Virus record (IMG/VR): IMGVR_UViG_3300049457_000009
Coordinates: 1 to 45,780 of that record
DNA: 45,780 nt
Strand: one strand, 5' to 3'
Origin: a virus
In this document: positions 3,121 to 45,300 of the stretch, in pieces
How positions within the stretch are numbered: position 1 is the first letter of the stretch
Layout of the letters: each line of letters opens with the position of its first letter
The notes under the pieces: model-generated
What the model saw: the letters and a program-made list of their open reading frames with translations, nothing else
What the model was told of the DNA's origin: nothing
Databases searched by the model: none
Translations under genes and position numbers: made by a program

Positions 3121-3519
3121 TTAATAATATAGCCAGCCAAATGCCCTAACAGCTTTGTACATTGCTTGCTCTTTCCATTTGGACTCCCCTGAAGCATCTA
3201 TCAATTCTTTAAAGATATCATCGCATTCTTTCCGGGTTAGGATATAGCCTTCCGGCAATTCACTATAATTTTGTTCCTGTACTTTACGGCCATATAACCA
3301 ATCATGTACAACTGCAGCTCCCCTATATAGCCCATCATGAGCTAGACCAAATATAGACCATACCCATTGGGGGATAGAAGCTAAATCAGTTAAGTAACCG
3401 GCGGGTACCTGAATGGAAATCTCTTTTCCAATACCATCATGAACGATTACTGTATAATGAGAGACTAATCTATAGAGCTTATCTGATATCGGCCTAACAT
3501 CAGGTTGTTCAAAAATCAT
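3121..3519 (-). CDS. DUF1353-family protein
   Basis: The 132-residue product has the family signature: VPAGYLTDLASIP, then W, then GAAVVHDWLYG. This is typical of DUF1353, a common phage protein of unconfirmed function; the conserved His and Asp suggest a metal-dependent hydrolase or membrane-associated factor, but this is not established. I chose the ATG at 3519 because it overlaps the glycosyltransferase stop as ATGA and has AAGGA 11 bases upstream. The ATG at 3531 would give four more residues but has no proper site. It is the last gene of the leftward arm. Confidence 0.85.
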   Translation of the reverse strand: MIFEQPDVRPISDKLYRLVSHYTVIVHDGIGKEISIQVPAGYLTDLASIPQWVWSIFGLAHDGLYRGAAVVHDWLYGRKVQEQNYSELPEGYILTRKECDDIFKELIDASGESKWKEQAMYKAVRAFGWLYY

Positions 3520-5157: not shown

Positions 5158-5831
5158 ACTTTTTCCGTCCATGCTTTAAAACTAACAGGAAAATATTCTT
5201 TTAAAATTTCACCTAGTTGCTTTGCTATTATTTGGCATTCAAGTTGAGAATGATTATCAATACGTTGTTTATAAATTCTAATGAATGCTAGAAGTGACCC
5301 TGTCCATATCCAGGAAGTATTCATTGATTGAGGCAGGACCATCCTGGCCATTTCAGGAGCGACACCAGAATCTAATAACCCGTTATACATTCTACGGGAT
5401 TCAGCTAAAAAACTATAGTATTGATTCTTTATATCTTGATAAAAGTGTTGTTCTTTATAATTGAATTTTTTAGAGAACTCGGTTAACTCCTCTTCAGAAC
5501 TGCCTTGCTTTATACTTCCATCCGGCCTCCCTCGCCATTTATCAGGGATATAAAATGTAGGAACCTCATCTATATATCTACGACTTATCTCATTGATAGA
5601 AAGGCCGACAGTGGAACGCTTCAATTGGTTGGCTATAAAGATGGGCACAGTAACTCGAACCTGAATCTGAGGATGGCTGAATGGGCTCCAATGCTGATTC
5701 CTGGCCAAATAATTTATAAGTTTATTATTCTGTTCCTTAGAATATGTAGAGGCTACTTTATCAAAGCTAACCCTAGCAGCGTCAACTACCATATCATCGG
5801 AGCCCATATGAGTTAGATATTCTATCTTCAT
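5154..5831 (-). CDS. thyX: FAD-dependent thymidylate synthase ThyX
   Basis: This 225-residue protein makes dTMP from dUMP using methylene-tetrahydrofolate and FAD. It has an N-terminal AARVSF, HWSPFSH (47-53), the ThyX signature region around 71-86 ending SINEISRRY, and a C-terminal R-x4-SQLECQ-type segment. The usual RHR at the start of the signature is altered (LKRSTVGLSINE), see findings. It starts by ATGA overlap with the DUF6378 gene and ends by ATGA overlap with the methyltransferase, so the three are probably co-translated. It belongs to the dNTP supply set with NrdA, NrdB and MazG. Confidence 0.93.
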   Translation of the reverse strand: MKIEYLTHMGSDDMVVDAARVSFDKVASTYSKEQNNKLINYLARNQHWSPFSHPQIQVRVTVPIFIANQLKRSTVGLSINEISRRYIDEVPTFYIPDKWRGRPDGSIKQGSSEEELTEFSKKFNYKEQHFYQDIKNQYYSFLAESRRMYNGLLDSGVAPEMARMVLPQSMNTSWIWTGSLLAFIRIYKQRIDNHSQLECQIIAKQLGEILKEYFPVSFKAWTEKV

Positions 5832-6133
5832 TTAGTACCTCTTAACAATTCATCACATTCACCAGCTATAGCCATGTAAGCCGCCCCGTCAACATAATTA
5901 TCGTTGTGGCCTCTGTTGGCCGCTATCCGGGATACTTTTGCCAAAACCATAAAGATAGCCGCATCTACTGCATCAATTTCAACGTATTCAATATTCTTTC
6001 CTTTTAAATAGGCATTACATAGATCGGCAAGAGTCGTTAGGTTTACTATTGGTGGCCCATAAGTCTTATTCCGATCATTTGCTGTCAGTTTACTCGCAGT
6101 ATTGAGTATTTTTTCTCGTATAGATTCAGTCAT
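5828..6133 (-). CDS. DUF6378-like small phage protein
   Basis: Starts at ATG 6133 behind AAAAGGAGA at ideal spacing; the open frame continues upstream to 6214, but that part overlaps nrdA and lacks a site. The 101-residue product has the family pattern: R-x-K-x-YGPP near the N-terminus, a middle D-A-x-x-F-MVLAKVSRIA and HNDNYVDGAAYMAIA near the C-terminus. DUF6378 proteins are common in phages and lie near nucleotide metabolism genes. The helical layout and conserved acidic residues resemble all-alpha NTP pyrophosphatases, but activity is not established. Confidence 0.8.
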   Translation of the reverse strand: MTESIREKILNTASKLTANDRNKTYGPPIVNLTTLADLCNAYLKGKNIEYVEIDAVDAAIFMVLAKVSRIAANRGHNDNYVDGAAYMAIAGECDELLRGTK

Positions 6134-6204
6134 AATTTCTCCTTTTCTAATTGGGTCGAAAAATATCCAATTAAACATTGGATTAGAAATGTTTGGTCCT
6201 GTTT

Positions 6205-8448
6205 TCATTGACATGATTCACATCCTGGATCTTCTATCTTACATTGCTGTACTTCAGTTCGGATATGCGTTTTGCCAAATTGATTTGGGTCTATAGTCGA
6301 TTTCTCAACTTGACTTGCGCCTAGAGTTCGTAAGTAGTAAGTGGTCTTAACACCAGATTTCCATGCCCTGAAGTACAAATCAGATAGTTTTTGACCATTG
6401 GGCTCTTTAACATATAAATTCAGGGATTGGCTTTGACTAATGAAAGGTTGTCTTGCCGCCGCTTGATCAATTAAAACGTTCTGATCAATCTCAAAAGCAG
6501 TCTTGTATTTATCTTTCAGATATTTAGGGATGCGGTCTATGTTTTGAACTGAACCATCTCGATATTTTAATTCATTCAACATTTCTGTATCCCAAATACC
6601 GGCGGCTAGAAGATCTTTAACTAAATAATTATTAATATTTGTAAACTCTCCTGATAGATTAGATTGCACAAACAGATTACTATACAGAGGTTCTATACTA
6701 GGGCTAGTGCCAACAATATTACTGATAGTAGCTGTGGGCGCGATAGCTGTCACGTAAGAATTCCGCATCATGGTTTTTTGAGTAGAATGCCCCCAGTTTG
6801 CATAAGTCCCTTTTTCTTTTGCCAAAGATTCAGATGTAGCTATAGCAGTTTGTTGGATAATTTTTTGGATTGTTTCCGCCATTGATAAAGCTTCAAAACT
6901 ATCAAAGGTATAGTTAAGTTTATGTAAAGATTCTTGCCAGCCCATAATTCCTAGACCTATAGGGCGATTTGCTTTATTTGTTTTGGCGGCGGTTTCTGTA
7001 GGATAAAACATGGTATCAATAATATTATCTAACATCCGAACTGCGAGGGTGACCGTATTTTTTAATTTAGTTCCGTTAAAACCTTGTGGCACTAAATGAT
7101 TACTCAGATTAATAGAGCCAAGATTACAGACAGCGGTTTCATTAGGGCCCGTATTTAATGTAATTTCAGTACAAAGATTGCTAGACCGAATCATTCCAAG
7201 TTTCTGAAGGGGATTAGCTGCATTACAAGGATCCTTAAAACATATCCACGGATGTCCCGTTTCATATAAGGAGGATAGAATTTTCTTCCACAAATCTTTG
7301 GCCTTAACAGTTTTCCGAATGAATTGTCCGTTTCGTTCATAAGTTTGGTAGAAATCTTCAAATCGACCACCCCAAGAATTTGCGAGATATGGGCATTCAT
7401 AGGGGCAAAACAAAGACCAATCGCCATCTTCTTCCACTCGTTTCATGAAGAGGTCTGGAATCCAGAGCGCAGTATCAAGATCGTGAGTTCGTCGTCTGTC
7501 ATCCCCGATCGCTTTCCGTAAATCAAGGAACTCTTCGATATCAACGTGCCAAGGTTCAATATATGCGCAATGAGATCCGCGTCTTTTACCTCCTTGATTG
7601 ACCGCAATCGCAATATCATTTTGTATCTTGAGCCACGGGATAATCCCAGTTGAGTTACCATTAGTTCCGTTGATTCGGCTGCCTGAAGCACGCACGCCAG
7701 TCCAGTTTGTACCGATACCTCCAGCCCATTTTGACATCTGAGCAATTTCACTATAGGCATCGAAAATATCCCCTAAAGAATCATCTACATGGGTAACATA
7801 GCAACTGGCCATCTGTGGTCGAATAGTACCCGCATTAAAGAGCGTTGGGGTGCTTGGCATATAATCAAACGAAGATATACAATCGTAAAAGGTAATAGCC
7901 CATTCTGCGTGGTTTGTTTTTTCTCCCAACGCAATACCCATAGCAACCCGCATAAATAAATACTGCGGTGTCTCAAGAAGCCGTCCTGAATCGTTTCGTA
8001 AAAGGTAACGGTCATAAAGAATTTTCACTCCTTGATATCTAAACAATTTGTCACGTTCAGGTTTAAGTGCATTTTGCAAAGTGCTAGTATCGAACATCCC
8101 TTGCTCATCGCCAACAGTCCAATCATTCATTCTAGGATCTAAACGCCCCGAACCTAGAGAATGGCAATACCCATTAAACGTCCCTTTCACTTCTTTATAT
8201 ATCCGTCTTAAAAGAAGGCGAGCCGCAACATAGTCATAATTAGGATGAACTTCAATAAGTTCACAAGCAGCCATGATAGTAGCTTCTGAAAGCTCATCGG
8301 TGCTAATTCCATCATACCAAGATACTTTACACCTTGTAGCAATTTCCGTCCATTCCACATAGCTTAAATCCTTACAAGCTTCTTGTATAGCCTCATTAAT
8401 CTGGCTCTCGTCAATTGGCTCTAGGCCATGTTTTGTTATAACTTGCAT
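6205..8448 (-). CDS. nrdA: Class I ribonucleoside-diphosphate reductase, large subunit
   Basis: This 747-residue protein reduces ribonucleotides to deoxyribonucleotides together with NrdB. Residues 1-90 look like an ATP-cone regulatory domain. The catalytic barrel has C216 (MASCYV), N424 and C426 and E428 (NLCTEI) and C441 (AVCNLGSINL), then the Tyr pair in TTYYLRTL. The C-terminus ends CESCQ, the mobile pair that is re-reduced by thioredoxin or glutaredoxin. All expected residues are present, so it should be active. AAAGGGA precedes the start. No glutaredoxin or thioredoxin gene is visible, so it presumably uses a host reductant. Confidence 0.97.
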   Translation of the reverse strand: MQVITKHGLEPIDESQINEAIQEACKDLSYVEWTEIATRCKVSWYDGISTDELSEATIMAACELIEVHPNYDYVAARLLLRRIYKEVKGTFNGYCHSLGSGRLDPRMNDWTVGDEQGMFDTSTLQNALKPERDKLFRYQGVKILYDRYLLRNDSGRLLETPQYLFMRVAMGIALGEKTNHAEWAITFYDCISSFDYMPSTPTLFNAGTIRPQMASCYVTHVDDSLGDIFDAYSEIAQMSKWAGGIGTNWTGVRASGSRINGTNGNSTGIIPWLKIQNDIAIAVNQGGKRRGSHCAYIEPWHVDIEEFLDLRKAIGDDRRRTHDLDTALWIPDLFMKRVEEDGDWSLFCPYECPYLANSWGGRFEDFYQTYERNGQFIRKTVKAKDLWKKILSSLYETGHPWICFKDPCNAANPLQKLGMIRSSNLCTEITLNTGPNETAVCNLGSINLSNHLVPQGFNGTKLKNTVTLAVRMLDNIIDTMFYPTETAAKTNKANRPIGLGIMGWQESLHKLNYTFDSFEALSMAETIQKIIQQTAIATSESLAKEKGTYANWGHSTQKTMMRNSYVTAIAPTATISNIVGTSPSIEPLYSNLFVQSNLSGEFTNINNYLVKDLLAAGIWDTEMLNELKYRDGSVQNIDRIPKYLKDKYKTAFEIDQNVLIDQAAARQPFISQSQSLNLYVKEPNGQKLSDLYFRAWKSGVKTTYYLRTLGASQVEKSTIDPNQFGKTHIRTEVQQCKIEDPGCESCQ

Positions 8449-8493
8449 AACTATCCCTTTTTATTTGCTAAATAATCAATATCAGATATTATT

Positions 8494-8793
8494 TTAATAT
8501 TCTAAATTTCCTGATTTAGCCCATTGTAAAGCGCATTTTTTTAAGCCTTCTGGATAATCATATAGCCCCAAATGGTATAGCGAGCCACAATATAGGTCCT
8601 CTTTAACTATCTTATATTTAAGAGAATGTTTAATATCTTGCCAATTTTCTAGCGCTAGGCGACAAATTGAATCAAATTCAGTATCTTTCATTGGTGGGTC
8701 TATATTAGTATGATAGTATAAAAAACTGGACATTAATAGGGCTGGGACACATAAATTAATATTTTTTTTGCAAAGATTATATGTTATGTTCAT
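8494..8793 (-). CDS. Small protein resembling the N-terminal domain of NAD-dependent DNA ligase
   Basis: This 99-residue protein contains FLYYHTNIDPPMKDTEFDSIC, matching the YY-x3-DP-x-x-xD-xE[YF]D-x-L pattern of LigA domain Ia (the NMN-binding part). The nucleotidyltransferase, OB and BRCT domains are missing. Such LigA-related small proteins are seen in many phages; whether they bind NAD or act alone is unknown. The start overlaps the stop of the upstream gene (8790-8793). The first 20 residues are Cys-rich and lie outside the similarity; a later ATG at 8733 is possible. Confidence 0.7.
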   Translation of the reverse strand: MNITYNLCKKNINLCVPALLMSSFLYYHTNIDPPMKDTEFDSICRLALENWQDIKHSLKYKIVKEDLYCGSLYHLGLYDYPEGLKKCALQWAKSGNLEY

Positions 8794-9002
8794 TTCAAAT
8801 ATTTATCCAATTCAACAAGGAGGTCTATTTCATGATCTTCTAATATAGTAATAAGCGTGTCCACATATTTTAGATGGCGGGAATCTAGTTTATACCCTTC
8901 ATCCCATATAAATCGAGTTTTGCCTTTTCCGCCTCCAGGGCCAATATAATGATCCCTTTCATAAAATTCTTCTCGTATATATTTTTGGCTAGCTAATCTC
9001 AT
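8790..9002 (-). CDS. Small hypothetical protein between nrdA and nrdB
   Basis: The ATG at 9002 follows AAAGGAGC at ideal spacing. The 70-residue product is charged. It has a Gly-Lys stretch (YIGPGGGKGKTRFIW, 19-33) and a C-terminal amphipathic helix rich in Leu, Ile and Asp. Despite GGGKGKT it is too short to be a P-loop ATPase. Overlap by ATGA with the next gene suggests coupling. Function unknown. Confidence 0.7.
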   Translation of the reverse strand: MRLASQKYIREEFYERDHYIGPGGGKGKTRFIWDEGYKLDSRHLKYVDTLITILEDHEIDLLVELDKYLK

Positions 9003-9055
9003 TCTTGCTCCTTTGGATACCAGTTTGGTTTAAATTCTTGTTTTCGTAAATATGT

Positions 9056-10054
9056 TTACCATTCCAAAGCGCCCCCAATTTGATATTCAGTTACGCGGCT
9101 TTCAAAAAAGTTCTTTTGTTTAGTAAGATCAATTATTTCTGACATCCAGGGAAATGGTGTCCTAGTATTAAAGATTGCTGGAAGGCCAATGGAGACAAGC
9201 CTTCTATCTGCAATATATTCGGTGTATTCTCGAAAAGATTTAGCAGACATTCCGAGCATACCACTGCCAACAAGTGTGTCTGCATAAAGGGACTCAAGTT
9301 CCGAAGCTCTCTTAATTTTTGCAGTGATGTCATTTTTAAATTCCTCTGTCCATAAACGTTGATTCTCATTTTTAATACCATTTATTAAATCAATGCCGAA
9401 ATTCATGTGCATAGATTCATCTCGCATAATATATTGGAATTGTTCCACGGTTCCAGGAAGCAAGTTGCGGCGTTTAAAGCTCATAATAGCTGCAAAAGAT
9501 GCGTAGAAAAAGATTCCTTCCATTATGATATAGAAATCGATCAAAGCTTCCAGGATTTCATGATCATTTGGAAGTTTATTCAATAGCCCAACTGCCAACT
9601 GAGATACGAAATTATCCTTTTTATATATGGCTGCAACAGTTCGGTACTTATCAAATATCTCCTCTTCATCTAATCCGAGGGACTGGACAATATGTTGATA
9701 CGAATGAGTATGGATCGCTTCTTCGTAAGCTTGGCGGAGTAGGTAGAGACGGCACTCAGGAGCCGTAATCTTACTATAAACGAGAAGTACAAGATTATTG
9801 GCGACCAAACTATCCGCAGTAGTAAAGAATCCAAGTGCCGTTTTGATAACATGTTTTTCATTATCTGTTAAAACTCCTGGAGCATTCCATTGTTCTATAT
9901 CTTTCTGCATTGAAATTTCTTGTGGTAGCCAGTGGTTGGCATTAGCAGCATGATAAGCATCCATTGCCCATTGGTATTTAATTGGGGATAATTTCACAAC
10001 ATCATTCTTACCATTAATAAGACGACGGTCATTTGCTTCTTTAGCTAGAGTCAT
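9056..10054 (-). CDS. nrdB: Class I ribonucleotide reductase, small (radical) subunit
   Basis: This 332-residue ferritin-like protein provides the radical for NrdA. Expected di-iron ligands are visible: D81 (TADSLVANN), E112 and H115 (EEAIHTHSY), E179 (MEGIFF), E213 and H216 (DESMHMNFG). Y119 occupies the radical-Tyr position in E-A-I-H-x-x-S-Y. All key residues are present. It is encoded upstream of nrdA in transcription order, separated from it by two small genes. Its start overlaps the cupin stop (ATGA), and AAGGA precedes it. Confidence 0.97.
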   Translation of the reverse strand: MTLAKEANDRRLINGKNDVVKLSPIKYQWAMDAYHAANANHWLPQEISMQKDIEQWNAPGVLTDNEKHVIKTALGFFTTADSLVANNLVLLVYSKITAPECRLYLLRQAYEEAIHTHSYQHIVQSLGLDEEEIFDKYRTVAAIYKKDNFVSQLAVGLLNKLPNDHEILEALIDFYIIMEGIFFYASFAAIMSFKRRNLLPGTVEQFQYIMRDESMHMNFGIDLINGIKNENQRLWTEEFKNDITAKIKRASELESLYADTLVGSGMLGMSAKSFREYTEYIADRRLVSIGLPAIFNTRTPFPWMSEIIDLTKQKNFFESRVTEYQIGGALEW

Positions 10055-10476
10055 TGATTACATCCTTTTCCTATTAGGTTTCCACCTTCGTAGGTAGATA
10101 CAAAGTCTTTCCAGTATACCCATCCTTTTGGGCAATGGAATCCCCAAGGGCGTTTCCAAGAGCCGGTTATAAATAAACTCCAGATTGAACCTTTAGAATG
10201 GTCTTCTATCTCTATTCTATGAGCAATAACCGCTTTCCTAAAATAGAACTTAAAAGGTTTTCTCCATATTTTATAAGTAGGAAGATGTTCCCAGTATCCA
10301 CCCTTCAGTATAAAACTGAGGTTCCACCAGGGATGATCATGCAGGGCCCGATCATCATCACTTTTCCAGAATTGATGTAAATAAATATTAAGCCAAGGAT
10401 TTCGAGGTATAATATACCAACGATAAAGATAGGGATCTGTTGGGGGGCCTATAATAAAATGAGGCTTTAAAACCAT
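10051..10476 (-). CDS. Cupin-like phage protein
   Basis: The 141-residue product has the pattern DDDRALHDHPWWNLSFILKGGY, then RKAVIAHRIEI and WSLFITG..WGFHCP-GWVYWK. HDHP with a later AHR corresponds to the two metal-binding motifs of a RmlC-like cupin barrel. This is a recurring phage family without known substrate. I favour the ATG at 10476, which overlaps the MazG-like stop (TAATG) and has GGGAA nine bases upstream; the ATG at 10485 would add three residues. It overlaps nrdB by four bases. Confidence 0.75.
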   Translation of the reverse strand: MVLKPHFIIGPPTDPYLYRWYIIPRNPWLNIYLHQFWKSDDDRALHDHPWWNLSFILKGGYWEHLPTYKIWRKPFKFYFRKAVIAHRIEIEDHSKGSIWSLFITGSWKRPWGFHCPKGWVYWKDFVSTYEGGNLIGKGCNQ

Positions 10477-10898
10477 TATACGCATTTCCCGTGTTTATAA
10501 GGGCGAGTAAAATTGTAAGCTTCTTTCTCGTCTCTAGCGCCACCTAAATCAAGATCGTAAGCACCTGCGTAATCTTCAATCCTAATCAAAGTATCAGCCA
10601 ATTCTACTTCTTCCATCTTACGGTGAGGAAGTTTATCATCCATAGAATCTTTCCTAACCCCTTCGACCATTTCAGACAGTTCCGAATGAATCAATGCAAT
10701 GCGGGCTAGCTTCCGATTTCTTTCCCAAATACTTTTTAATTTGGCCGCAGCATCAATAGGAAGAAAAATTTCACAAGCGTCCTTTTCAATATAAGCGATA
10801 AGATTTTCTATGAATTCATCGTCTTCATAAAATCCTTTATTTATCATAGCCTTTGAGGTATTCTTAGAAGCCTTATTAATCTGATCTCTATATTCCAT
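10476..10898 (-). CDS. MazG-like nucleotide pyrophosphohydrolase
   Basis: The 140-residue product has an all-alpha NTP pyrophosphatase signature: HSELSEMVEGVRK followed by KMEEVELADTLIRIEDYA, giving the E-x2-E plus E-x2-D metal-binding acids. It ends ARDEKEAYNFTRPYKHGK, typical of the phage MazG-like branch. It would hydrolyse (d)NTPs to monophosphates, perhaps dUTP or ppGpp-like substrates. The ATG at 10898 is preferred because GAGG lies six bases upstream; the ATG at 10910 lacks a site. It lies two bases from the RuvC-like gene. Confidence 0.85.
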   Translation of the reverse strand: MEYRDQINKASKNTSKAMINKGFYEDDEFIENLIAYIEKDACEIFLPIDAAAKLKSIWERNRKLARIALIHSELSEMVEGVRKDSMDDKLPHRKMEEVELADTLIRIEDYAGAYDLDLGGARDEKEAYNFTRPYKHGKCV

Positions 10899-10899
10899 T

Positions 10900-11409
10900 T
10901 TAAACCTCATATTCTTTTAATGATTGTCTGTACCCGTACTCAGCTATTAGAATTGCGTCCGCTAAATCTAAAGTAATTTGATTTTTGTAGTTTGGAAACA
11001 GTTTTTTAGCGGTCTCTAAATAAGCTTGTTTCCTGGCGGCTTTTTTTGCCGCTGCATTTTTAAATGTTTCTTTTCCTGTTATATTGGCCAAACCTAATTC
11101 TTGTTGCCAGACTTGCGGCAGGATTAAATTATAACTGACATTTTCTTGTTTAAGCATTCCCTCAATTATGCCAACTGAACGGCCAAAGGAAAATACTGAA
11201 GTAACTCCTTGTCCCGGCATTGAGTGGACTTTTTCTAAATATGTTTCAGTTTGATATTTAGTATTATCTTTTATAAACTGTCGGATTTCAAAACATGAAG
11301 TAGTAAAATTATTAGTATTCTTAAATTTAGCCCATGCTAAACTATGATCAGCATATATAGCCACAATAGCCCCTGAAGCACCGGGATCAATACCAATAAT
11401 AGTATTCAT
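10900..11409 (-). CDS. RuvC-like Holliday junction endonuclease
   Basis: The 169-residue product has an RNase H-like fold pattern. D8 lies in IIGIDPGASGAI, E59 in TYLEKVHSMPGQG, and D148 and D151 in TLDLADAILIAEYG, which together would bind two metal ions. It should resolve branched DNA before packaging or support recombination. I chose the ATG at 11409 because it overlaps the DNA polymerase stop as ATGA and the conserved region starts there; the ATG at 11433 adds eight residues but has no spaced site. Confidence 0.88.
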   Translation of the reverse strand: MNTIIGIDPGASGAIVAIYADHSLAWAKFKNTNNFTTSCFEIRQFIKDNTKYQTETYLEKVHSMPGQGVTSVFSFGRSVGIIEGMLKQENVSYNLILPQVWQQELGLANITGKETFKNAAAKKAARKQAYLETAKKLFPNYKNQITLDLADAILIAEYGYRQSLKEYEV

Positions 11410-13451
11410 TTTCTGTAACGATATCCTTTCCATACTTCCGCGTCTAAAGGTAAATCAGGAGCCCATTTAATTTGCCGAATGAAACATTCTTTAACTTCTT
11501 CTAAATTAATATCATTCATACCTTCTGATAATATCTCATCATGTACAGTTAATACAATATCTAGTCCATAATTCTTTATATTAAACATTCCTTCAACCAT
11601 AACATCTCTGGCGATAGCTTGCACAATATTCTCAGTTAGCTTGCCTCCGTAAGTATGCTCTCTGTATAATTGTTTTGTGGTTGAATCAATGCCGACGTAA
11701 GTAAAAGTTTCTTTTGTTGAGCCGAATTTATTCGTCCTATTTTCAATTTGTGGTTTATAATATGCCATCTTCCTATCCGAAGGTAAAATACAATATAGGA
11801 AGTCATCTTCTACTTTGAATTCTAAATTAGGATAATTAGCATTTGTATGGCCTATAGCAGGCTCATTAACAGCTTTAATAACCAGTATATTTATATCTGT
11901 CCAGAATTGGACAATTTGGTCGTTATTGACTCGCCAACGTTGTTTAATGATATCGGCGCATAAGCCTTCTTCTTTATTAAAACATTCAACTTCTGATTTC
12001 AACGCTTCTTTGGCATAACCTGCATAGACAAACTCTGCTTTATCTAATTCATCCGGTGTAGCAGAATTAATAATCTGCTGTGCAATCGGAGCAAGCGAGA
12101 CACCATAAATTGTACACATCTTATAGAAAGCGGCAATACCACCTTGGTAACCAAGGCCAAGGACAGCGCACTTACCGACTTGTCGCTCTTCTTTGTCATT
12201 TTCTGTAATAACTCGTCCATATATATTGCTAGCCTCCTTTAAGTAAATATCTTCATTTTTACGAAATACATCTAAAGTATGTTTTTGGCCTGCAATCCAG
12301 GGAGTGATCCTAGCTTCAATCCCTGCATAGTCCCCTCCGATAAAACATTTTCCCACAGAAGGAATAATTACAGATCGAATAAGGCTGGAAGCAGTATCAT
12401 TAATAGAGCCGTAAATAGAAGGCCATATAACATCACCAGTATCAATGGTTGATAAAGCATACTCCGTATCAAATCCTTTCATAGGTCTTGGTAAATTCTG
12501 TAATTGAGCCCCTTGGCCCGTCCAGCGCCCTGTACCGGCACCGCAAAATACAAGATTCTCTCTTAATCGGTTATCGGAGTCTATGGAATCAAAAATCTTT
12601 TTATACTTGGCCGTAGAGCTTTTTGATAATATTTTGCGGATTTCGAGAATCTCTCTAATATCTTCTGATAAATTATCGGAGCCCAATAATTTTTTAATTT
12701 CTTTAGCATTAACCGAAGATATATCCAGGTTCTTAGCTTGTAAGAATTTTCTAAGTGCCACACTAGATTTTGGACTTCCAACTTTTCCTTGAACAAGTAG
12801 TTCAAATCGTTTTGATAGTCTGTTGTGCTCATCAGTAAGTAATCCTATGACTTCAGTTATCAATTGTTTATCTACATTGACCCCGCGTAAGTTAATTTCT
12901 TGATCCAACTCCCATAATAGTTGTTCTTGTGGGATTAAATCCGGGAGGGCTTTATCTATAGCCATTGTAGTCAAAACATCTTGTTTACAATAATTTAATA
13001 ACTGCCGTAAAGATACTTCATCTCTTGGGCCATCGGGCTTGCATATTTTGAGCATTAACTTTTTTCCGCCCATATCTTTCTGTTGAAGAAGATTCAAGGC
13101 ATCCGCCATTTTCTCTAATGATCCAGGTAATGCGTGTGCTTGCCCTTTGGCTCTAGTACATCTCCACGTTTTAATCGGTCGTTCTGAATATCCATAATTT
13201 TTGACTAATACATTTTGCCATATTAACTGTTCAAATATAGAATTATGAGCTACTAATAATTTATCTTTAATGAAATCTTCAATCCAGGGAGGGTCTGCAT
13301 GAAAGTCCAATACCTCCATAACAGTACCGTCTTCTGAAATGAGCACCCCACAAAGTATATCGGTAGAAACATGATTAGAATAGACTGAAGCATTAGATTT
13401 AAGTAGATCACATTCCGAAACAGTTTCAAAATCGATATACACTTTTTTCAT
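11406..13451 (-). CDS. Family A DNA polymerase with 3'-5' exonuclease
   Basis: This 681-residue replicative polymerase has an exonuclease domain with DFET (D7, E9), AHNSIFE (68-74) and YCKQD (154-158). It is followed by an A-family polymerase domain: motif A GGDYAGIEAR (D374), motif B R423-QVGK-x7-GYQGG, and motif C VHDE (636-639, D638). There is no 5'-3' exonuclease domain, as expected for a phage replicase. It acts with the primase/helicase, the DUF2815 binding protein and the RuvC-like resolvase. Its start lies directly after the stop of the small gene upstream, and its site is weak, so coupling is likely. Confidence 0.96.
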   Translation of the reverse strand: MKKVYIDFETVSECDLLKSNASVYSNHVSTDILCGVLISEDGTVMEVLDFHADPPWIEDFIKDKLLVAHNSIFEQLIWQNVLVKNYGYSERPIKTWRCTRAKGQAHALPGSLEKMADALNLLQQKDMGGKKLMLKICKPDGPRDEVSLRQLLNYCKQDVLTTMAIDKALPDLIPQEQLLWELDQEINLRGVNVDKQLITEVIGLLTDEHNRLSKRFELLVQGKVGSPKSSVALRKFLQAKNLDISSVNAKEIKKLLGSDNLSEDIREILEIRKILSKSSTAKYKKIFDSIDSDNRLRENLVFCGAGTGRWTGQGAQLQNLPRPMKGFDTEYALSTIDTGDVIWPSIYGSINDTASSLIRSVIIPSVGKCFIGGDYAGIEARITPWIAGQKHTLDVFRKNEDIYLKEASNIYGRVITENDKEERQVGKCAVLGLGYQGGIAAFYKMCTIYGVSLAPIAQQIINSATPDELDKAEFVYAGYAKEALKSEVECFNKEEGLCADIIKQRWRVNNDQIVQFWTDINILVIKAVNEPAIGHTNANYPNLEFKVEDDFLYCILPSDRKMAYYKPQIENRTNKFGSTKETFTYVGIDSTTKQLYREHTYGGKLTENIVQAIARDVMVEGMFNIKNYGLDIVLTVHDEILSEGMNDINLEEVKECFIRQIKWAPDLPLDAEVWKGYRYRK

Positions 13452-13822: not shown

Positions 13823-14494
13823 TTAAACCTCATCTTCTTCAGCTAAAGATTCATTAGCAGCATCATCAGCAAAAGTTTTGAATAGGTTCATATCAGCTCC
13901 AGCACGGCCTAAAGGTTCACCATTCTTTTGTTTCTGGAAAGCATGGAGCCGCAAAAAGATTTTATCTTTATTATGAATCCCTACAGATACCAATGCTTGG
14001 CCGTAACATCCTGGATATACCAATTCCTTTTGTTCGACATTAATTTTATTTTTAGTAGCGTCCAGAATAGTCGGGGGGAAATAGGCATTCGCCGTTGCTT
14101 TGAATTGGCCTTTCATAAATGGATATTTTTCTAGTGTATCAACATTAGATTCTTTTTTAATTGCTTTTGCCAATCCTTTCAGAAAAGTATCCGCATAAAT
14201 AATATCTTCTTTATCGATGCCCATTTGAAGACGTTGAGCTTCTTCCGGGCTGTTAGGAATTACTGCTACTTTGGAGAATTCTGGGTGTTTCTTCAAACGC
14301 TCTACAGCCGCTTTATAATTATCAAAAGTTTCTTCCGGCGGAAATAAAAGAGTAATTCCATATTTTGGCTTTTGGCCTTCTTGAAAAGCTTTTGGGGTAA
14401 ATAAATCATGAAAAGCAATTTTTCCAAGAGGAAGAAGGAATTGATCTCGTAAATCAATAATTATATTATTATTTTGTTTTGTCTGTTCGGCCAT
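13823..14494 (-). CDS. DUF2815-type single-stranded DNA-binding protein
   Basis: The 223-residue product follows the DUF2815 pattern: an early FHDLFTPKAF, KYGITLLFPPE, a middle MKGQFKATANAYFPP, then YPGCYGQALVSV and a C-terminal strand segment ending GEPLGRAGAD. The last residues are acidic (ESLAEEDEV), as in T7 gp2.5 and SSB proteins, where such a tail contacts polymerase and helicase. It should coat single-stranded DNA in replication and recombination. GGAG precedes the start. It lies in the common phage order DUF2800, DUF2815, DNA polymerase. Confidence 0.88.
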   Translation of the reverse strand: MAEQTKQNNNIIIDLRDQFLLPLGKIAFHDLFTPKAFQEGQKPKYGITLLFPPEETFDNYKAAVERLKKHPEFSKVAVIPNSPEEAQRLQMGIDKEDIIYADTFLKGLAKAIKKESNVDTLEKYPFMKGQFKATANAYFPPTILDATKNKINVEQKELVYPGCYGQALVSVGIHNKDKIFLRLHAFQKQKNGEPLGRAGADMNLFKTFADDAANESLAEEDEV

Positions 14495-14498
14495 TATA

Positions 14499-15575
14499 TT
14501 AATCTCCTATTACATTAAAAGCTTCAAATAAATCGGGGGTTTGTTTTATAGTTCGAGTAAGTTTTTTTCCGGTCATTTCCCGTATAGTTATAGCATCAAC
14601 TTCTTCTTTTGGAATTAGTTTCTCCATTTGCGCCGGACTTTTTAATTTCAAATCGTATATTAAATCCGGGCCATATAATCTTGCTAGATTCCGCTTTGTA
14701 AATTCTTCATCTTTCCATTTCCTGTTTCCTAATGATTCAGTTAATTCATAGCCATCTATAATTAAACCTCTAGATACTGCTGAGAATGCTTGACTTCTTA
14801 TAGCCTTAACCCATGATTCTAATAAATCCACATTATCTAAATAGATTTTAAATTGTTCGGCGGATATATCTTCGATTGGTGGGCATTCTTTTAGAGGCAC
14901 ATCAGCTTTTATATTAAATTGTTCTTGAATTTGTTCTAATTGTTTTGGACAAAAAGCTAAAGCAGGGCACCATTTACATGAACTAGAGATATTTAATTGA
15001 TTTGATTTTAAAGCGGCTTTAAAATCTTTTTCAAAAGTGTCTAGTGCTTTAGAATCAGTTTTCCATACAGATATCCCCCCATTCCTTGGCTGAACGATAT
15101 ATAATTGAAGGGTTGTTATATCTATATGATGAGTATCTCTTATAGCTGTAGCATAATACATGAGTTGCTCATTATGTTCCGGCTCTATTTTTACCCCTCT
15201 GCCGAATTTATAATCAAAGACGTAAGCAGTTTTATCAGCTATAAAATATGCATCGCATGTCCCATAAGCGTTTTCACCTAAAGAAGTAGCAGTTACTCTA
15301 GCTTCGAGCTTTAATGGAATTTCCAGATTATCAATTTCAAATAGACAATCCTCAATTACACCGGCATACATTTTAGCGCCATCTATCATCTCGTCCGTTG
15401 CCCATGAAGGTATAGGCTGCCCTAATATATAAGCTTCTACTACTTCATGAGCGCGGGTACCCTCTTCGGCATATACAGATGATTCCTGCTTTGGGGCTTT
15501 AGCAACTAACGCCACGGAACCGGGACAAGCAATTATTCTTTTGGCACTAGATGGCCCAATCGACGAATGCTGCAT
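14499..15575 (-). CDS. DUF2800 family, Cas4-like PD-(D/E)XK nuclease
   Basis: The 358-residue product starts MQHSSIGPSSAKRIIACPGS and has EEGTRAHEVVEAYI, then YGTCDAYFIADKTAYVFDYKFGRG, which provides D and D-x-K of a RecB-like nuclease core, and QLMYYA. A cysteine set (CKWCPALAFCPKQ plus the N-terminal CPG) resembles the iron-sulphur cluster of Cas4/AddB-type enzymes. The family is nearly always beside a DUF2815 protein in phages and probably processes DNA ends for recombination. ATG 15575 follows GAGGT at proper spacing; the frame upstream overlaps the helicase gene and is not used. Confidence 0.88.
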   Translation of the reverse strand: MQHSSIGPSSAKRIIACPGSVALVAKAPKQESSVYAEEGTRAHEVVEAYILGQPIPSWATDEMIDGAKMYAGVIEDCLFEIDNLEIPLKLEARVTATSLGENAYGTCDAYFIADKTAYVFDYKFGRGVKIEPEHNEQLMYYATAIRDTHHIDITTLQLYIVQPRNGGISVWKTDSKALDTFEKDFKAALKSNQLNISSSCKWCPALAFCPKQLEQIQEQFNIKADVPLKECPPIEDISAEQFKIYLDNVDLLESWVKAIRSQAFSAVSRGLIIDGYELTESLGNRKWKDEEFTKRNLARLYGPDLIYDLKLKSPAQMEKLIPKEEVDAITIREMTGKKLTRTIKQTPDLFEAFNVIGD

Positions 15576-15576
15576 G

Positions 15577-17292
15577 TTATACCTCGTCTGAATCTTCAAT
15601 ATTATTTGAGGGAAGTAAAAAAGCCAGAGCGGATGGCATATCATGATCATTCAAACGATGATTCAAAGTTGAAAGATTATCGTCTATCATTTCAGAAATC
15701 TTTTTTACTTTAAATCCTTCTAGTAATACATTTTTATAATAGCTATCTGCTTCTTCTTTGGAAACACCAGCCTCTTTCAAAGTTTTTAAAAGAGTTTGTG
15801 CTTTTACTGTAAGTTCAGACCGATCAATTCCCGTATTTATTGGGCCAATAGTCTGGGGCTCCGAAGCAGTTACAGTTACGGCTCCAGGCTGTACAGAAAC
15901 TGTTTCTGCCGGTACTGCTACAGTTTTAGGTTCTTTTCCTTTTGGCTTCGCAGCTAGTTTTTGTGCTACTGCTTCAGCTACTTTTTCGGCAAAAAATAAT
16001 GCCAGAGTTTCAACGGCTTGATTCATCGTTTGTTTCCTTTCTACATGTACAGGTCTAATGAGTTTGGAGATAATATTTCGTTTCCATTCGAGCTTGAGGT
16101 CAATTTCCTCTTCAATAGTATTTGATGCAATGAGATAATGGACAAAAACTGTTTTAGTTTGGCCAATACGTCGAAGTCTATCCTTCGCTTGTTCGAGTAT
16201 TCCAGGGCTCCAATCGATTTCACCGAAAACAATGTAGTTACAAACATTTTGTAATCCATCTATTCCATATCCAGTAACGCTGATTTGACCGATTAAAAGC
16301 TTACAATTTTCATTTGTTTGGAATTCTATTAGGTTTTGGTGTTTTTGATCACTTGTCATTCCACCTTGTAATATAACTGAATCTTTGAAAGCTTCTTTTA
16401 GTTTTTGTATTGTTTCTCTATGATAAACGATTAATAGGACTTTATCAATAGTTTGTAATAAATCTGTTATATATTCAATTGTAAAGTCTACTTTCGCCAA
16501 AGAAACTAGTTTCCTTCGAGTAGGCATAAACTCGGATTCATCATCGATAATACCAGGGATGTTGATAACTGTCTCAACAATAGGGGGTAATTCAGTTAAT
16601 ACTTGCTCCTTGGTACGGCGTAAGATAAAAGCTGAGAGAATAGCCGCTAGTTCATCCGTATGAGTAGCACCTTTTGCTTGAAAGCCACAGAATCGACGTA
16701 CGAATATGGGCCAAGGTAAATATTTACCAAGAGACTTTGGGGCAAAAGCTTTAAGAATAATGTAAGCTTCTGACGGCCTATTCAATATTGGAGTGCCGGA
16801 CATCAAGCACACTTGTTTAGCGTTGGCCAGAAAGCTTCCAGGTGATTCTTTCCCGGTAACAGTACATATCGTTCTACCACCCAGTATATTTTTAGTACGT
16901 TTGGCTTTGGGATTTTTTAAAAAGTGCATCTCATCTACTATTACAAAATCGTAATGTAATTGAAGGAGCTTTAACTTGCCCTGATCAGTTCCGGCTCTGC
17001 TATAGCCACTTACCAAAATAAACTTACTAAAGTGCCTGGATTGGACAGGTTTATTTAGGAAAGCTTCAATAAAGTAATCAGGGAAAAATTCCTTGGCCTT
17101 CTCAACCCACTGAGGAATAATGGATGAAGGGCAAATAATCAAAATCTTTCTAGCACCTAATTCTAATGCCGCCGATAAAGCTTGGATTGTCTTACCAAGA
17201 CCCATATCATCTGCAAGAAGGCTATATTTTCTGTCTTTAATATAATTTACTCCTTCTCTTTGAAAAGGTAGTAGTGTATAAGGATTGTTCAT
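15577..17292 (-). CDS. SNF2-type DEAD/DEAH helicase with C-terminal extension
   Basis: Residues 1-420 form a SNF2-like superfamily 2 motor: Q11, Walker A DDMGLGKT (28-35), DEMH (120-123), SGTP (165-168) and motif VI QAKDRLRRIGQ (368-378). It would translocate on DNA with ATP, probably in replication or branch processing. Residues 423-571 are an added region: a helical Ala/Glu part, a Pro/Val/Thr-rich linker, and a C-terminal helical part. ATG at residue 423 (16026) has its own AAAGGA site, see findings. AGGAG precedes the main start, only about 20 bases after a terminator-like hairpin. Confidence 0.93.
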   Translation of the reverse strand: MNNPYTLLPFQREGVNYIKDRKYSLLADDMGLGKTIQALSAALELGARKILIICPSSIIPQWVEKAKEFFPDYFIEAFLNKPVQSRHFSKFILVSGYSRAGTDQGKLKLLQLHYDFVIVDEMHFLKNPKAKRTKNILGGRTICTVTGKESPGSFLANAKQVCLMSGTPILNRPSEAYIILKAFAPKSLGKYLPWPIFVRRFCGFQAKGATHTDELAAILSAFILRRTKEQVLTELPPIVETVINIPGIIDDESEFMPTRRKLVSLAKVDFTIEYITDLLQTIDKVLLIVYHRETIQKLKEAFKDSVILQGGMTSDQKHQNLIEFQTNENCKLLIGQISVTGYGIDGLQNVCNYIVFGEIDWSPGILEQAKDRLRRIGQTKTVFVHYLIASNTIEEEIDLKLEWKRNIISKLIRPVHVERKQTMNQAVETLALFFAEKVAEAVAQKLAAKPKGKEPKTVAVPAETVSVQPGAVTVTASEPQTIGPINTGIDRSELTVKAQTLLKTLKEAGVSKEEADSYYKNVLLEGFKVKKISEMIDDNLSTLNHRLNDHDMPSALAFLLPSNNIEDSDEV

Positions 17293-17656: not shown

Positions 17657-19723
17657 TCATACATCTTCTTCAATATCAATATCTTCTTCATCATTTTTTA
17701 CAAAAAAGGTGGCGCCACTACTTTTCTTTTTAACCCATCCTAATTGTCTCAAACATTTAGCTATTCTTTGTTGAGATCTTTTATCCCAGCTTTCAACACT
17801 ATAAATAGATAATGCGTCAAAGTAAACTTCCCTAGTTGTAACTGTAGCATTTTCTTTATTTCCTTTAATAAGCCAATCAGATATTAAATCTTCCCAAACA
17901 TCTGAATCTTTATTTATTTGAGCTTTTTCTTCGGCATGGTCTTTTATTGTTTCTACTAATTTATGCGGCCGTACGCCATTTCTATATAGCTCCATAGCTT
18001 CCGCAAATATTTGATCTCTATTAGCTTTTATATAATCAACTGGTATTTTTTCAGTTTGATCAATTATTAAGAATCTTCGGTTCTCATCATCGGTTATAAA
18101 ACCTGCTACAGTTGGATTAATAGTCCATACAGGAATACAAACTCTTGGAAAATCTTGAGGCCCATGTTTGCCATACATCGGAATATAAGTATCTTTTGTA
18201 CAAGTTATGAAAGCTTTTATCTGATTTATATCAACTTTATTCACAGAAGTTAATTCTGGAAACTCTAACCACCACGCGCCTTCAATCTCTTGTACACTTC
18301 TACTATCAGTAGGTATTTTCTTGGCTACTTTGGCGAATTCACCGCCGATAGCTTCAATTAGATAAGATTTACCTAGACCTTGTGCGCCGGCTATAACTAG
18401 CATATGGTCAAACTTGTATCCTGGATAGAATATACGATATATAGAAGCCAGCAAAAATATTTGAGCCACAGTTAATCGATAATATCCATAGCCGAATAGC
18501 ATTCCTATCCTTGGCTTTCCATCCCATTGTAAACCGTTTAACCAATCACATATCGGATTAAAGCTTCTAGCTATGGCCAAAGAATATACGGCGTCTTCTA
18601 ATAAAAGCGTGGGGCAATCCATTTTAGCCGTAATAGATAAGTCTACCCGTAATTCGCGCCAGTCCATATCACTCATAGTTAAAGAGCCGTCGGCTTTGTT
18701 ACCTCTCCAAAGGGGGCGATTGGAAAGCGCTATCTTCTTTCTGAAAGTATCCCAAAGGAATAACCCTTTGTATCTATCAGCTAATAGAACTATCCGAAGA
18801 TTAGACGCTGTGGGAAGAATGTGATCTCCTCGATACGTTAAAGCCGTTCCTGGATGGAGTTTGGCATAAAAAGCATCATCATAAACTCCCGGTTTATATA
18901 CTGATTCAGCTAAAGGTTTGTTGGAAGTAAATACTTCAAAATTGATAGCGGCTTTCCCTTTTGCATTTTGAGCATATTTGGCCGCATTCCCAATAATTGT
19001 AGAAAGCTCTTGCTCACCCCAAGAAGGAGAGTTCTTTTGATCCCATTCAAGCATGACTTCTAGTATATCTTCTTTAGAAAGTCCAAAGTCAAACCCGTAC
19101 GCTGCAGTATTATAGGTATAATCATTTCCGTTCTCGCCTTGAACGGCGGGCGCTTGAGCCATTATCCATTGTTTAAACCGGCTACGCTCCAGGGACTCGT
19201 TTATTTTAATAGGTGATGCATCGAGCTTCTCTACTTTAATATCATTTTGTAACTCTTCCAATAGTTTAATCGGAGCTTCTGGAGAAGTTGATAACTCTCC
19301 TTGTTGGTAATGATATTCTCCAGTTTCAGCTATAGAGTTTGGGCCGATAACATATGATTTTTCTGACAAGAAGTCTATACCCGGATATTGTGGAAGGTTC
19401 TTCCTTATTGGCTGTTGGGTAGGATTCCTAAACCAATAATGATATCCTCCTCTAGCTGTCTTACAAGTAAAACAATCTGAAAAATCCACAAAAGCTGATA
19501 ATTTGGTAAAACTGTCATGGGCTTCAGGTTTCCGAAGGTCAACATCTATTACCAACCATTCAGCTTCCAGCGCCACAGCATAACACGACCAACGGTTAGC
19601 GTCATCTCCATCTATCATCCAGTATTCCAGATCGCGCCAGCCTGATGCTTTAGGTCGTCTATTGGCTGAACATTCAAAGACTGAAAGATTATTCTCTAAA
19701 AAGTAAGAAGCAGATACTGTCAT
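17657..19723 (-). CDS. PrimPol-VirE type primase/helicase
   Basis: This 688-residue protein is a bifunctional DNA primase/polymerase joined to a helicase. Residues about 5-160 form the PrimPol domain, with VIDVD (58-62, D60 and D62) and TARGGYHYWF (H95). Residues about 200-255 resemble a PriCT linker. The C-terminal part is a VirE-like superfamily 3 helicase (Walker A GAQGLGKS 446-453; Walker B WWLEFPEL 484-491), with a basic and then acidic tail. It should make primers and unwind the fork. I chose ATG 19723 (AGGA six bases upstream) because the ATG at 19756 lies in the terminator hairpin. Confidence 0.93.
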   Translation of the reverse strand: MTVSASYFLENNLSVFECSANRRPKASGWRDLEYWMIDGDDANRWSCYAVALEAEWLVIDVDLRKPEAHDSFTKLSAFVDFSDCFTCKTARGGYHYWFRNPTQQPIRKNLPQYPGIDFLSEKSYVIGPNSIAETGEYHYQQGELSTSPEAPIKLLEELQNDIKVEKLDASPIKINESLERSRFKQWIMAQAPAVQGENGNDYTYNTAAYGFDFGLSKEDILEVMLEWDQKNSPSWGEQELSTIIGNAAKYAQNAKGKAAINFEVFTSNKPLAESVYKPGVYDDAFYAKLHPGTALTYRGDHILPTASNLRIVLLADRYKGLFLWDTFRKKIALSNRPLWRGNKADGSLTMSDMDWRELRVDLSITAKMDCPTLLLEDAVYSLAIARSFNPICDWLNGLQWDGKPRIGMLFGYGYYRLTVAQIFLLASIYRIFYPGYKFDHMLVIAGAQGLGKSYLIEAIGGEFAKVAKKIPTDSRSVQEIEGAWWLEFPELTSVNKVDINQIKAFITCTKDTYIPMYGKHGPQDFPRVCIPVWTINPTVAGFITDDENRRFLIIDQTEKIPVDYIKANRDQIFAEAMELYRNGVRPHKLVETIKDHAEEKAQINKDSDVWEDLISDWLIKGNKENATVTTREVYFDALSIYSVESWDKRSQQRIAKCLRQLGWVKKKSSGATFFVKNDEEDIDIEEDV

Positions 19724-19739
19724 AAAGGTCCTACTGGTT

Positions 19740-19778
19740 AAAAAAACTCCTCTCACTTGATTTCTTAAATGAGAGGAG
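19740..19778 (-). terminator. Terminator-like hairpin in the leader of the primase
   Basis: On the - strand CTCCTCTCA (19778-19770) pairs perfectly with TGAGAGGAG (19755-19747), with a 14-base loop and seven T (19746-19740). Only 16 bases separate the T-run from the primase ATG. Confidence 0.88.
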
Positions 19779-19834
19779 CAAAATCAGGAAATGGAGAGTT
19801 AGTTTTACTATAGTTATTCGTACACGATTATTTT

Positions 19835-19977: not shown

Positions 19978-20304
19978 TTAAAAATGTCCTTGTATTGTTT
20001 GGCCGTCTGGAAAGTCAGACGCTGTAAATTGGTCTTGAAAGGGGTTAAAAAGCGGGTTGGAAGTGTCTTGGCCAAGGTTATATAATCCTCCCAGCGTCTG
20101 ATGTAACTGGTCTTGGGCTTCTTGAGATGTGTTGTAAGTTGTACCAAGCATATTGTTGGCCTTAACCGCCCAAGCAGGGTTACTCCCTTCTTGAGTTGGA
20201 GAAGTGAAATGGTCTATGTTGCAGCATCCAAAGGTTTCATCATCATATTGGACAACGCCATACTGTCCTGCATAATTTGTAAGCTGAGTAAATACAGGAT
20301 TCAT
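19978..20304 (-). CDS. Hypothetical protein in the early leftward arm (108 residues)
   Basis: ATG 20304 follows AAAGGATATGATA, nearly the same leader as both pentapeptide-repeat genes; an ATG two codons upstream is too close to the site. The product is acidic, Gln/Asn-rich and soluble-looking (NYAGQYGVVQYDDETFGCCN; SQEAQDQLHQTLGGLYNLG). It has a CC pair but no recognisable motif. The shared leader suggests co-regulation with the pentapeptide genes. Function unknown. Confidence 0.7.
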   Translation of the reverse strand: MNPVFTQLTNYAGQYGVVQYDDETFGCCNIDHFTSPTQEGSNPAWAVKANNMLGTTYNTSQEAQDQLHQTLGGLYNLGQDTSNPLFNPFQDQFTASDFPDGQTIQGHF

Positions 20305-20322
20305 TATCATATCCTTTCATAC

Positions 20323-21003
20323 TTACATTACTGTAGGACCTTTATACTTTTTAGGTTCATGTTCCTCTCTTAAAGACAAATTATCCATTATAGCAAATAT
20401 GGTGGCTTTATTCTGATCCCAATATTCTAAAGCTTTATCATCCATTTTATCTATTTCTTCATCAGTAAAATCTTTCCATTTTTGGTTATTGTATTTTTCA
20501 CAGCCTATTTGCATTGAGTTTTTTTGTATGTAAGCAACATAGGGATAAGACGTATAGATACATAAACCTGTATTTTTAAGATTAAACTCTCCAAAATTAG
20601 CCCCTCGAAGATTAACCGCTTGAAGATTAGCCCCTTCAAGATTAGCTTTTCGAAGATCAGCTCCTTCAAGATCAGCTCCTTCAATATTAATCCATTGAAG
20701 ATGGGCCCATTGAAAATTAGCTCCTTCAATATTAGCTCCTTCAATATTAGCTCCTTGAATATTAGCTCCTTTAATATTAATCCATCGAAGATTAGCTCCT
20801 TGAATATTAGCTCCTTGAATATTAGCTTTTCGAAGATCAGCATATTGAATATTAGCTCCTTGAAGATTAGCTCTTCGAAGATCAGCATATTGAAGATTAG
20901 CCCCTTGAAGATTAACTCCTTGAAGATTAGCCCCTCGAAGGGTATCTCCTTCGTAAATATAAATCACTTCACCGGTTATTCTATGTTTGATTTCTATAGC
21001 CAT
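20323..21003 (-). CDS. Pentapeptide-repeat protein, copy 2
   Basis: This 226-residue protein has about 24 A(N/D)LXX pentapeptides (about residues 24-140), which form a right-handed quadrilateral beta helix. The N-terminus (MAIEIKHRITGEVIYIYEG) and the C-terminal domain from NTGLCIYTSYPYVAYIQKNS to the end are almost the same as in the neighbour at 21022-22122, so this is a tandem duplication with fewer repeats and some changed ones (AN[IF]-type). Pentapeptide proteins such as MfpA and Qnr mimic DNA and bind gyrase; in an early phage arm, a DNA-mimic or inhibitor role is plausible but unproven. Confidence 0.9.
   Translation of the reverse strand: MAIEIKHRITGEVIYIYEGDTLRGANLQGVNLQGANLQYADLRRANLQGANIQYADLRKANIQGANIQGANLRWINIKGANIQGANIEGANIEGANFQWAHLQWINIEGADLEGADLRKANLEGANLQAVNLRGANFGEFNLKNTGLCIYTSYPYVAYIQKNSMQIGCEKYNNQKWKDFTDEEIDKMDDKALEYWDQNKATIFAIMDNLSLREEHEPKKYKGPTVM
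20590..20945 (-). repeat. 15-bp tandem repeats encoding pentapeptides (copy 2)
   Basis: Imperfect 15-base units (GCTCCTTGAAGATTA and relatives on the + strand) repeat through the gene, each encoding one pentapeptide. They are coding repeats, not a CRISPR array: there are no spacers. Confidence 0.9.
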
Positions 21004-21021
21004 TATCTTATCCTTTCATAC

Positions 21022-22122
21022 TTACGTTACTGCAGGACCTTTATAATCTTTAGGCTCATGTTCCTTTTTTAAAGCCAAACTATCCATTATAGCAAATATA
21101 GCGGCTTTATTCTGATCCCAATATTCTAAAGCGTTATCATCCATTTTATCTATTTCTTCATCGGTAAAATCTTTCCATTGTTGGTTACTACATTGTTTAC
21201 ACCCTATTTGTGTTGAGTTTTTTTGTATATAGGCAACATAGGGATAAGACGTATAGATACATAAACCTGTATTTCTTAACCTAGCTCTTCTAAAATTAGC
21301 TCCTTGAAGATCAGCTTCTTGAAGATTAGCTCCTTCGAGCTTAGCATATTGAAGATCGGCATATTGAAGATCGGCATATTGAAGATTAGCTCCTCGAAGA
21401 TTAGCCCATTGAAAATTAACTACTGTAAGATCAGCTCCTCGAAGATTAGCTCCTTGAAGATTAGCTTCTTGAAGATTAGCTTCTCGAAGATTAGCTCCTT
21501 GAAGATTAGCTTCTTGAAGATTAGCTTTTGTAAGATCAGCTCCTCGAAGATCAGCCGCTGTAAGATCAGCTCCTCGAAGATCAGCCGCTGTAAGATTAAC
21601 TCCTTGAAGATTAGCCCCTCGAAGATCAGCCGCTGTAAGATCAGCTCCTCGAAGATCAGCCGCTGTAAGATCAGCTCCTCGAAGATTAGCTTTTGTAAGA
21701 TCAGCTCCTCGAAGATCAGCCGCTGTAAGATCAGCTCCTCGAAGATTAGCTTTTGTAAGATCAGCTCCTCGAAGATCAGCTCCTCGAAGATCAGCCGCTG
21801 TAAGATCAGCTCCTTCGAGCTTAGCTTCTCGAAGATCAGCTCCTCGAAGATTAGCTTTTGTAAGATCAGCTCCTCGAAGATCAGCCGCTGTAAGATCAGC
21901 TCCTCGAAGATTAGCTTCTTGAAGATTAGCCGCTGTAAGATCAGCTCCTCGAAGATTAGCTTCTTGAAGATTAGCTTTTGTAAGATCAGCTCCTCGAAGA
22001 TTAGCCCCTTGAAGATCAGCTCCTCGAAGATTAGCCCCTTGAAGATCAGCTCCTCGAAGATCAGCTCCTTCGTAAATATAAATCACTTCACCGGTTATTC
22101 TATGTTTGATTTCTATAGCCAT
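21022..22122 (-). CDS. Pentapeptide-repeat protein, copy 1
   Basis: This 366-residue protein has a 19-residue N-terminal cap, then about 52 pentapeptides (ADLRG, ADLTA, ANLQE and similar) at about residues 20-280, and a C-terminal alpha-helical domain (DFTDEEIDKMDDNALEYWDQNKAAIFAIM). The long regular helix is negatively charged along its length, as in DNA-mimic proteins. The AAAGGATAAGATA leader is shared with copy 2. Being close to the leftward promoter, it should be made early. The C-terminal domain also occurs in copy 2 and is the most specific feature for finding relatives. Confidence 0.92.
   Translation of the reverse strand: MAIEIKHRITGEVIYIYEGADLRGADLQGANLRGADLQGANLRGADLTKANLQEANLRGADLTAANLQEANLRGADLTAADLRGADLTKANLRGADLREAKLEGADLTAADLRGADLRGADLTKANLRGADLTAADLRGADLTKANLRGADLTAADLRGADLTAADLRGANLQGVNLTAADLRGADLTAADLRGADLTKANLQEANLQGANLREANLQEANLQGANLRGADLTVVNFQWANLRGANLQYADLQYADLQYAKLEGANLQEADLQGANFRRARLRNTGLCIYTSYPYVAYIQKNSTQIGCKQCSNQQWKDFTDEEIDKMDDNALEYWDQNKAAIFAIMDSLALKKEHEPKDYKGPAVT
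21280..22070 (-). repeat. 15-bp tandem repeats encoding pentapeptides (copy 1)
   Basis: The same kind of 15-base units, but more uniform than in copy 2. A higher-order pattern is visible where pairs such as GCTCCTCGAAGATCA plus GCCGCTGTAAGATCA alternate, which points to recent expansion by slippage or unequal recombination. Confidence 0.9.
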
Positions 22123-22203
22123 TATCTTATCCTTTCATTTTACGGTTGATTGCGGGTTCGAGAGCGAGAGTTTTTATTATTTTGATGTCTATGTAGCTAA
22201 AGG

Positions 22204-43176: not shown

Positions 43177-45300
<2,124 letters not shown>

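Follow-up and report, generated by a model that had tools for sequence, protein, structure and literature searches.

Qnr and MfpA, the pentapeptide-repeat proteins invoked for DNA mimicry of the gyrase type, share the pentapeptide solenoid fold with the protein pair described here. They dimerise through a C-terminal helix, and in Qnr proteins projecting loops, larger in some members, interrupt the pentapeptide frame. More similar to the pair are phage proteins of the phrog_31567 type: orf232 of the Salmonella phages ST64T and L, orf19 of ST104, the 'pentapeptide' of the Barba phages and gp20/21 of Caulobacter Rauchvirus. They have in common with it a pentapeptide stalk of variable length, the same C-terminal domain and an early-region gene; these phages usually carry one such gene, whereas the locus studied here carries a tandem pair. 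A literature search on phage pentapeptide-repeat proteins found no member of this family with a tested function. Phages L and ST64T are >99.9% identical, and the 16 bp by which they differ genome-wide include one unit of orf232 (PMC8022706); the ST64T copy bears the phrog_31567-type C-terminal domain. Stalk length likewise varies between the near-identical Caulobacter phages RW and GB2A, whose pentapeptide protein genes differ by 375 nt (PMC11053796), which comparison of the sequences showed to be exactly 25 units. The C-terminal domain of the RW protein was considered as a distant relative of the one described here, but no relationship was found (hhalign probability 2%).

The window, i.e. the whole 45.8-kb stretch analysed, is a viral record from a metagenome. 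The phage is of the podovirus type, as judged from its head-tail connector (PF12236), to which the closest named connectors show 25–34% identity. The pentapeptide pair are the first long genes of the leftward (minus-strand) arm and head a replication/recombination operon. Profile and PHROGs matches identified in this arm, all on the minus strand, a primase/helicase with Prim-Pol and VapE-like domains as the next gene (17657..19756), an SNF2/DEAD-type helicase (15577..17292), an exonuclease (phrog_69, 14499..15650), a Gp2.5-like single-stranded DNA-binding/annealing protein (phrog_112, 13823..14494) and a family A DNA polymerase (11406..13451), together with a resolvase. A strong terminator-like hairpin of 13 pairs followed by a T run (19746..19779, minus strand, z −4.45) falls between the pentapeptide gene group and the primase. 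An earlier note on this DNA had placed the pair near the early promoter; it does open the leftward arm, but promoter-like matches were not in excess of shuffled sequences (18 versus 14.1 ± 3.7).

Elsewhere in the window, metabolic genes at 3516–10910 encode the large and small subunits of ribonucleotide reductase, thymidylate synthase, a glycosyltransferase, cysteine dioxygenase and a pyrophosphatase. A 1527-aa open reading frame (38405–42988) had no Pfam match and is probably a large internal virion protein. At both of its ends (1–163 and 45676–45780) the record runs into one and the same 36-bp collagen-like (G-X-Y) repeat; a collagen-like tail gene is therefore the probable site at which the contig broke, or joins. 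Another such array is located at 44705–44992.

The long pentapeptide-repeat gene (21022..22122, minus strand) encodes 366 amino acids and the short one (20323..21003, minus strand) 226. Both products belong to the Pfam Pentapeptide family PF00805 by their tandem A(D/N)LXX repeats (short, E = 7e-37, 124.9 bits; long, E = 5e-124, 403.6 bits; cut-off 20.2). Strict counting between the caps gave 25 and 53 pentapeptides, close to the about 24 and 52 initially reported. The caps and domains described as shared are indeed so. The N-terminal caps (long gene, 22066..22122; short gene, 20947..21003) comprise 19 residues and are identical in protein and DNA (57/57 nt), and the C-terminal domains (21022..21270 and 20323..20571), which PHROGs searches and alignment assigned to the phrog_31567 type, are identical at 225 of 249 nt (24 differences; 90%). 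Between the two domains a dN/dS of 0.44 (bootstrap 0.18–1.15) at a dS of 0.20 was determined. Positive selection, considered because of 15 amino acid changes against few silent codons, was unsupported, as the interval reaches 1.15. Two plus-strand open reading frames across the pair (20620–21072 and 21304–22149) were discarded as genes, being mirror images of the minus-strand repeats.

The two stalks (long, 21271..22065, 795 nt; short, 20572..20946, 375 nt; both minus strand) show little variation in codon use; for the longer one, near-identity of the repeats at the DNA level had been noted. Leucine is encoded by CTT in 48 of 51 codons of the long and 15 of 15 codons of the short stalk (63/66), compared with about 20% of leucine codons in eight genes elsewhere in the window, and threonine is encoded by ACA in all 14 codons of the long stalk. 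Exact repeats reach at most 87 nt in the long gene, offset by 60 nt, and at most 26 nt in the short one. This near-uniform codon use indicates that the stalk repeats are homogenised at the DNA level. Of the higher-order units proposed earlier, the similarity between repeats is present, but it is spread across many offsets with no dominant single period. Because the record is metagenomic, the exact number of pentapeptides in the window genes could be an assembly error.

A common leader had also been noted, and the 18-nt sequence TGAAAGGATAWGATAATG was found before both pentapeptide genes and before the next gene. Exactly three copies (at 20302, 21001 and 22120) occur in the window and none elsewhere; with up to three mismatches allowed, four matches were obtained versus 0.24 expected. 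Copy 1 (22120..22137, minus strand), TGAAAGGATAAGATAATG, contains the ribosome-binding site and start codon; copies 2 and 3 are at 21001..21018 and 20302..20319 (both minus strand). Copy 3 precedes a 110-aa gene (19978..20310, minus strand) to which open reading frame listing and profile searches assigned no function, and which probably shares a transcript with the pair. It is likely that copy 3 represents the boundary of a tandem duplication. The pair would then have arisen from a single early phage gene composed of N-cap, pentapeptide β-solenoid and conserved C-terminal domain, probably by recombination between the short leaders preceding this gene and its downstream neighbour.

AlphaFold2 predicted for the short protein (mean pLDDT 81, pTM 0.60) a β-hairpin N-cap with strands at residues 2–7 and 13–18, a right-handed solenoid with a pLDDT of about 90 in its N-terminal half that drops toward the C-terminal end, and the C-terminal domain. 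Modelled alone (pLDDT 87), the latter folded into four strands and three helices, with a terminal helix about 21 residues long. With this model no match was found among solved structures in the PDB (best E 1.2); matches to viral structure models at E ≤ 0.001 included named phage pentapeptide proteins, the remaining hits carrying no name. The isolated domain of the short protein matched phrog_31567 (E 6.7e-10), as did seven of seven members of the alignment. The domain carries the family motif (Q)IGC...W..F.D..I..MD..AL.(F/W/Y)W, and W, A, L and W are invariant across 42 sequences. No model in Pfam or NCBIfam matched the domain, and PADLOC defence models matched neither protein. The long protein scored 248.7 bits and the short one 103.3 bits against the Alr5209 family of short single-domain pentapeptide-repeat proteins (NCBIfam NF052603, cut-off 125 bits); the long protein was not filed there because it exceeds the cut-off only when the scores of five repeat stretches are added together.

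The C-terminal domain was found in 173 phage and 30 plasmid records, with P22-like Salmonella phages, Acinetobacter prophages, and Caulobacter and Rheinheimera phages among its carriers. One search of IMG/VR contigs gave 30 loci and another 121 confirmed loci, of which 80 were kept. A first scan of bacterial genomes yielded none, a second 10 loci across varied bacteria. Stalks in the family range from about 5 to 53 units, with a median of 22 among 80 distinct complete proteins (automatic count, which ran one unit too long on the window pair); the 53-unit stalk of the window is the longest among the complete relatives counted, the next having 37. At least two N-cap types occur, and in one record (L001) the N-cap type of the window is joined to a different C-terminal domain. 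Conversely, in three records (L025, L127 and L128) the C-terminal domain is carried by YdcK-type β-solenoid repeats (Pfam above cut-off) and not by pentapeptides, which indicates that the type of rod can be swapped with the C-terminal domain retained. In EBPR podovirus 1 (L008:1-883) the domain follows repeats of about 20 residues, LSGCDLTGITLPTSIGGSL. In that record the reading frame shifts inside the domain and the coding sequence is split over two frames; the annotated gp1 is therefore only the end of the domain.

That stalk length changes by slippage, as the earlier note had proposed, or by recombination between repeats is well supported by relatives with identical or near-identical caps that differ by whole 5-residue units, and by the published L/ST64T and RW/GB2A cases. 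Acinetobacter relatives with near-identical caps range from 172 to 265 aa, the Rheinheimera Barba phages have seven lengths between the same caps (165, 170, 195, 200, 205, 215 and 225 aa), and the proteins of Caulobacter Rauchvirus JessA, BL94 and RapA have 242, 252 and 277 aa, respectively. In the Barba phages an NTGNWNTG-repeat protein (PF01469 by annotation) is encoded just upstream of the pentapeptide gene (L005:4237-5214). The stalks of the window differ by 28 units, equal to seven solenoid turns; a rule by which the caps would be kept in register by whole turns of four units was rejected, since the Barba, Acinetobacter, L/ST64T and RW/GB2A proteins differ by arbitrary numbers of units. 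Another tandem pair, again with stalks of different length (240 and 200 aa), was identified in 10 IMG/VR contigs (L064–L072 and L077), which look like one phage species. As in the window, the genes are adjacent, with the same caps within the pair and different stalk lengths. The N-cap is of another type (LKEILRLHKLWL...) and the divergence is older (C-terminal domain dS 0.65 versus 0.20 in the window), with purifying selection acting between the copies in L064 (dN/dS 0.14). Recombination between repeats would homogenise the stalk, which gains or loses whole 5-residue units, as seen in the relatives.

With regard to function, the gene neighbourhood was compared across the family. P22-like phages carry the family gene in a slot flanked by ral, an anti-restriction gene, and gene 17, with erf, abc1 and abc2 farther downstream. 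Of 68 family groups, 26 (raw count) have an exonuclease or single-strand annealing protein gene no more than 6.5 kb away, always on the same strand as the pentapeptide gene and mostly downstream, and in Rauchvirus the family gene adjoins the DNA polymerase. At the homologous site of barba19A, one Barbavirus species, the gene is absent. It is hence non-essential in that Barbavirus, which fits an accessory role and gives no function. As a functional clue, anti-restriction and recombination neighbours amount to guilt by association, early operons holding many kinds of genes.

We favor the reading that the pair encodes early counter-defence or host-takeover proteins acting via the C-terminal domain (probability roughly 45%), on account of the early gene position together with a charge count that speaks against DNA mimicry. 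The counter-defence role suggested in the earlier note is borne out as far as gene position is concerned (the operon here, the ral/gene 17 slot in P22-like phages) and not by function.

The main rival, which we consider unlikely though by no means negligible, is an accessory factor of phage replication or recombination that would serve as a scaffold for, or a regulator of, the exonuclease, annealing protein or polymerase encoded by the phage itself. Such a role would fit the recurrent same-strand place upstream of genes for YqaJ exonuclease, ERF or RecT in the 26 of 68 groups, the adjoining DNA polymerase in some relatives, and the order in the window, where the pair comes before the genes for primase, helicase, exonuclease, annealing protein and polymerase. 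Yet the neighbour type varies among phages (ERF, RecT, YqaJ or polymerase), so that there is no single conserved phage partner; the gene is missing from one Barbavirus species, and in the window the strong terminator separates the pair from the primase.

It appears improbable that the solenoid imitates double-stranded DNA and in this way inhibits the gyrase of the host, a restriction enzyme or some other defence protein that binds DNA. The predicted right-handed pentapeptide solenoid gave structural matches to MfpA, QnrB1 and AlbG, and the early gene position, with ral as neighbour in P22-like phages, would suit such a function. TM-scores for Qnr and MfpA are low (0.2–0.4), however, and the best matches are to synthetic or cyanobacterial solenoids. 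Charge was assessed by a sequence count over the whole stalk and per face. The net charge is 0 for the 25-unit stalk and −6 over the 265 residues of the 53-unit stalk, each of the four solenoid faces lies between −3 and +2, and stalks across the family have a median of −1.1 per 100 residues with both signs present; the count thus gave no strongly negative surface of the kind expected of a DNA mimic. The earlier note had itself named a neutral or positive helix surface, together with no effect on any DNA-binding enzyme, as grounds for refuting its reading; of these, the charge half agrees with the sequence count. The window proteins also scored far under the cut-offs of the NCBIfam models for Qnr (NF033086, 44.9 and 107.9 bits; cut-off 240) and MfpA (NF000349, 40.4 and 94.6 bits; cut-off 360). 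A genome search for Qnr sequences to serve as a yardstick gave none above cut-off. Unlike Qnr and MfpA, the pair shows no acidic surface by sequence count, its stalks of 25 and 53 units run unbroken with no loop interrupting the frame, and the C-terminal domain is unrelated. Further points against a DNA mimic are that the same domain caps the YdcK-type solenoid and that the pentapeptide proteins McbG and QnrB did not inhibit BREX (PMC7261183). Judged from sequence, the near-neutral faces and the low scores to the Qnr and MfpA models make charge-based DNA mimicry of gyrase unlikely.

Least probable is that the proteins are virion or structural components, or that the genes are repeats without selected function that expand by slippage. 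This would accord with the extreme length variability (about 5 to 53 units) but not with a C-terminal domain conserved in very diverse phages down to its invariant W, A, L and W, the purifying selection between the L064 copies, or a position in the early region, apart from the structural arm.

In the favored counter-defence or host-takeover reading, the proteins would act early in the cytoplasm, the conserved C-terminal domain engaging a putative host protein. Such binding is a conjecture, because the domain has no solved relative. The solenoid would be a length-tolerant rod that sets the reach of the domain or offers a repeated surface, and two copies of different length may allow one version to be kept stable while the other varies. 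A bolder proposal, to which we give little credence, is that the pair is a length-diversification device composed of a stable short and a hypervariable long counter-defence copy, the C-terminal domain being a new class of host-enzyme inhibitor on an interchangeable β-solenoid.

The phage protein family to which the window pair belongs is widespread but unstudied. Its members occur in phages of very different kinds, P22-like ones among them, and its C-terminal domain is uncurated in Pfam and NCBIfam. Few features change as fast as stalk length when near-identical phages are compared. As natural length alleles with identical caps exist (Barba phages, L/ST64T), the effect of stalk length is directly testable.
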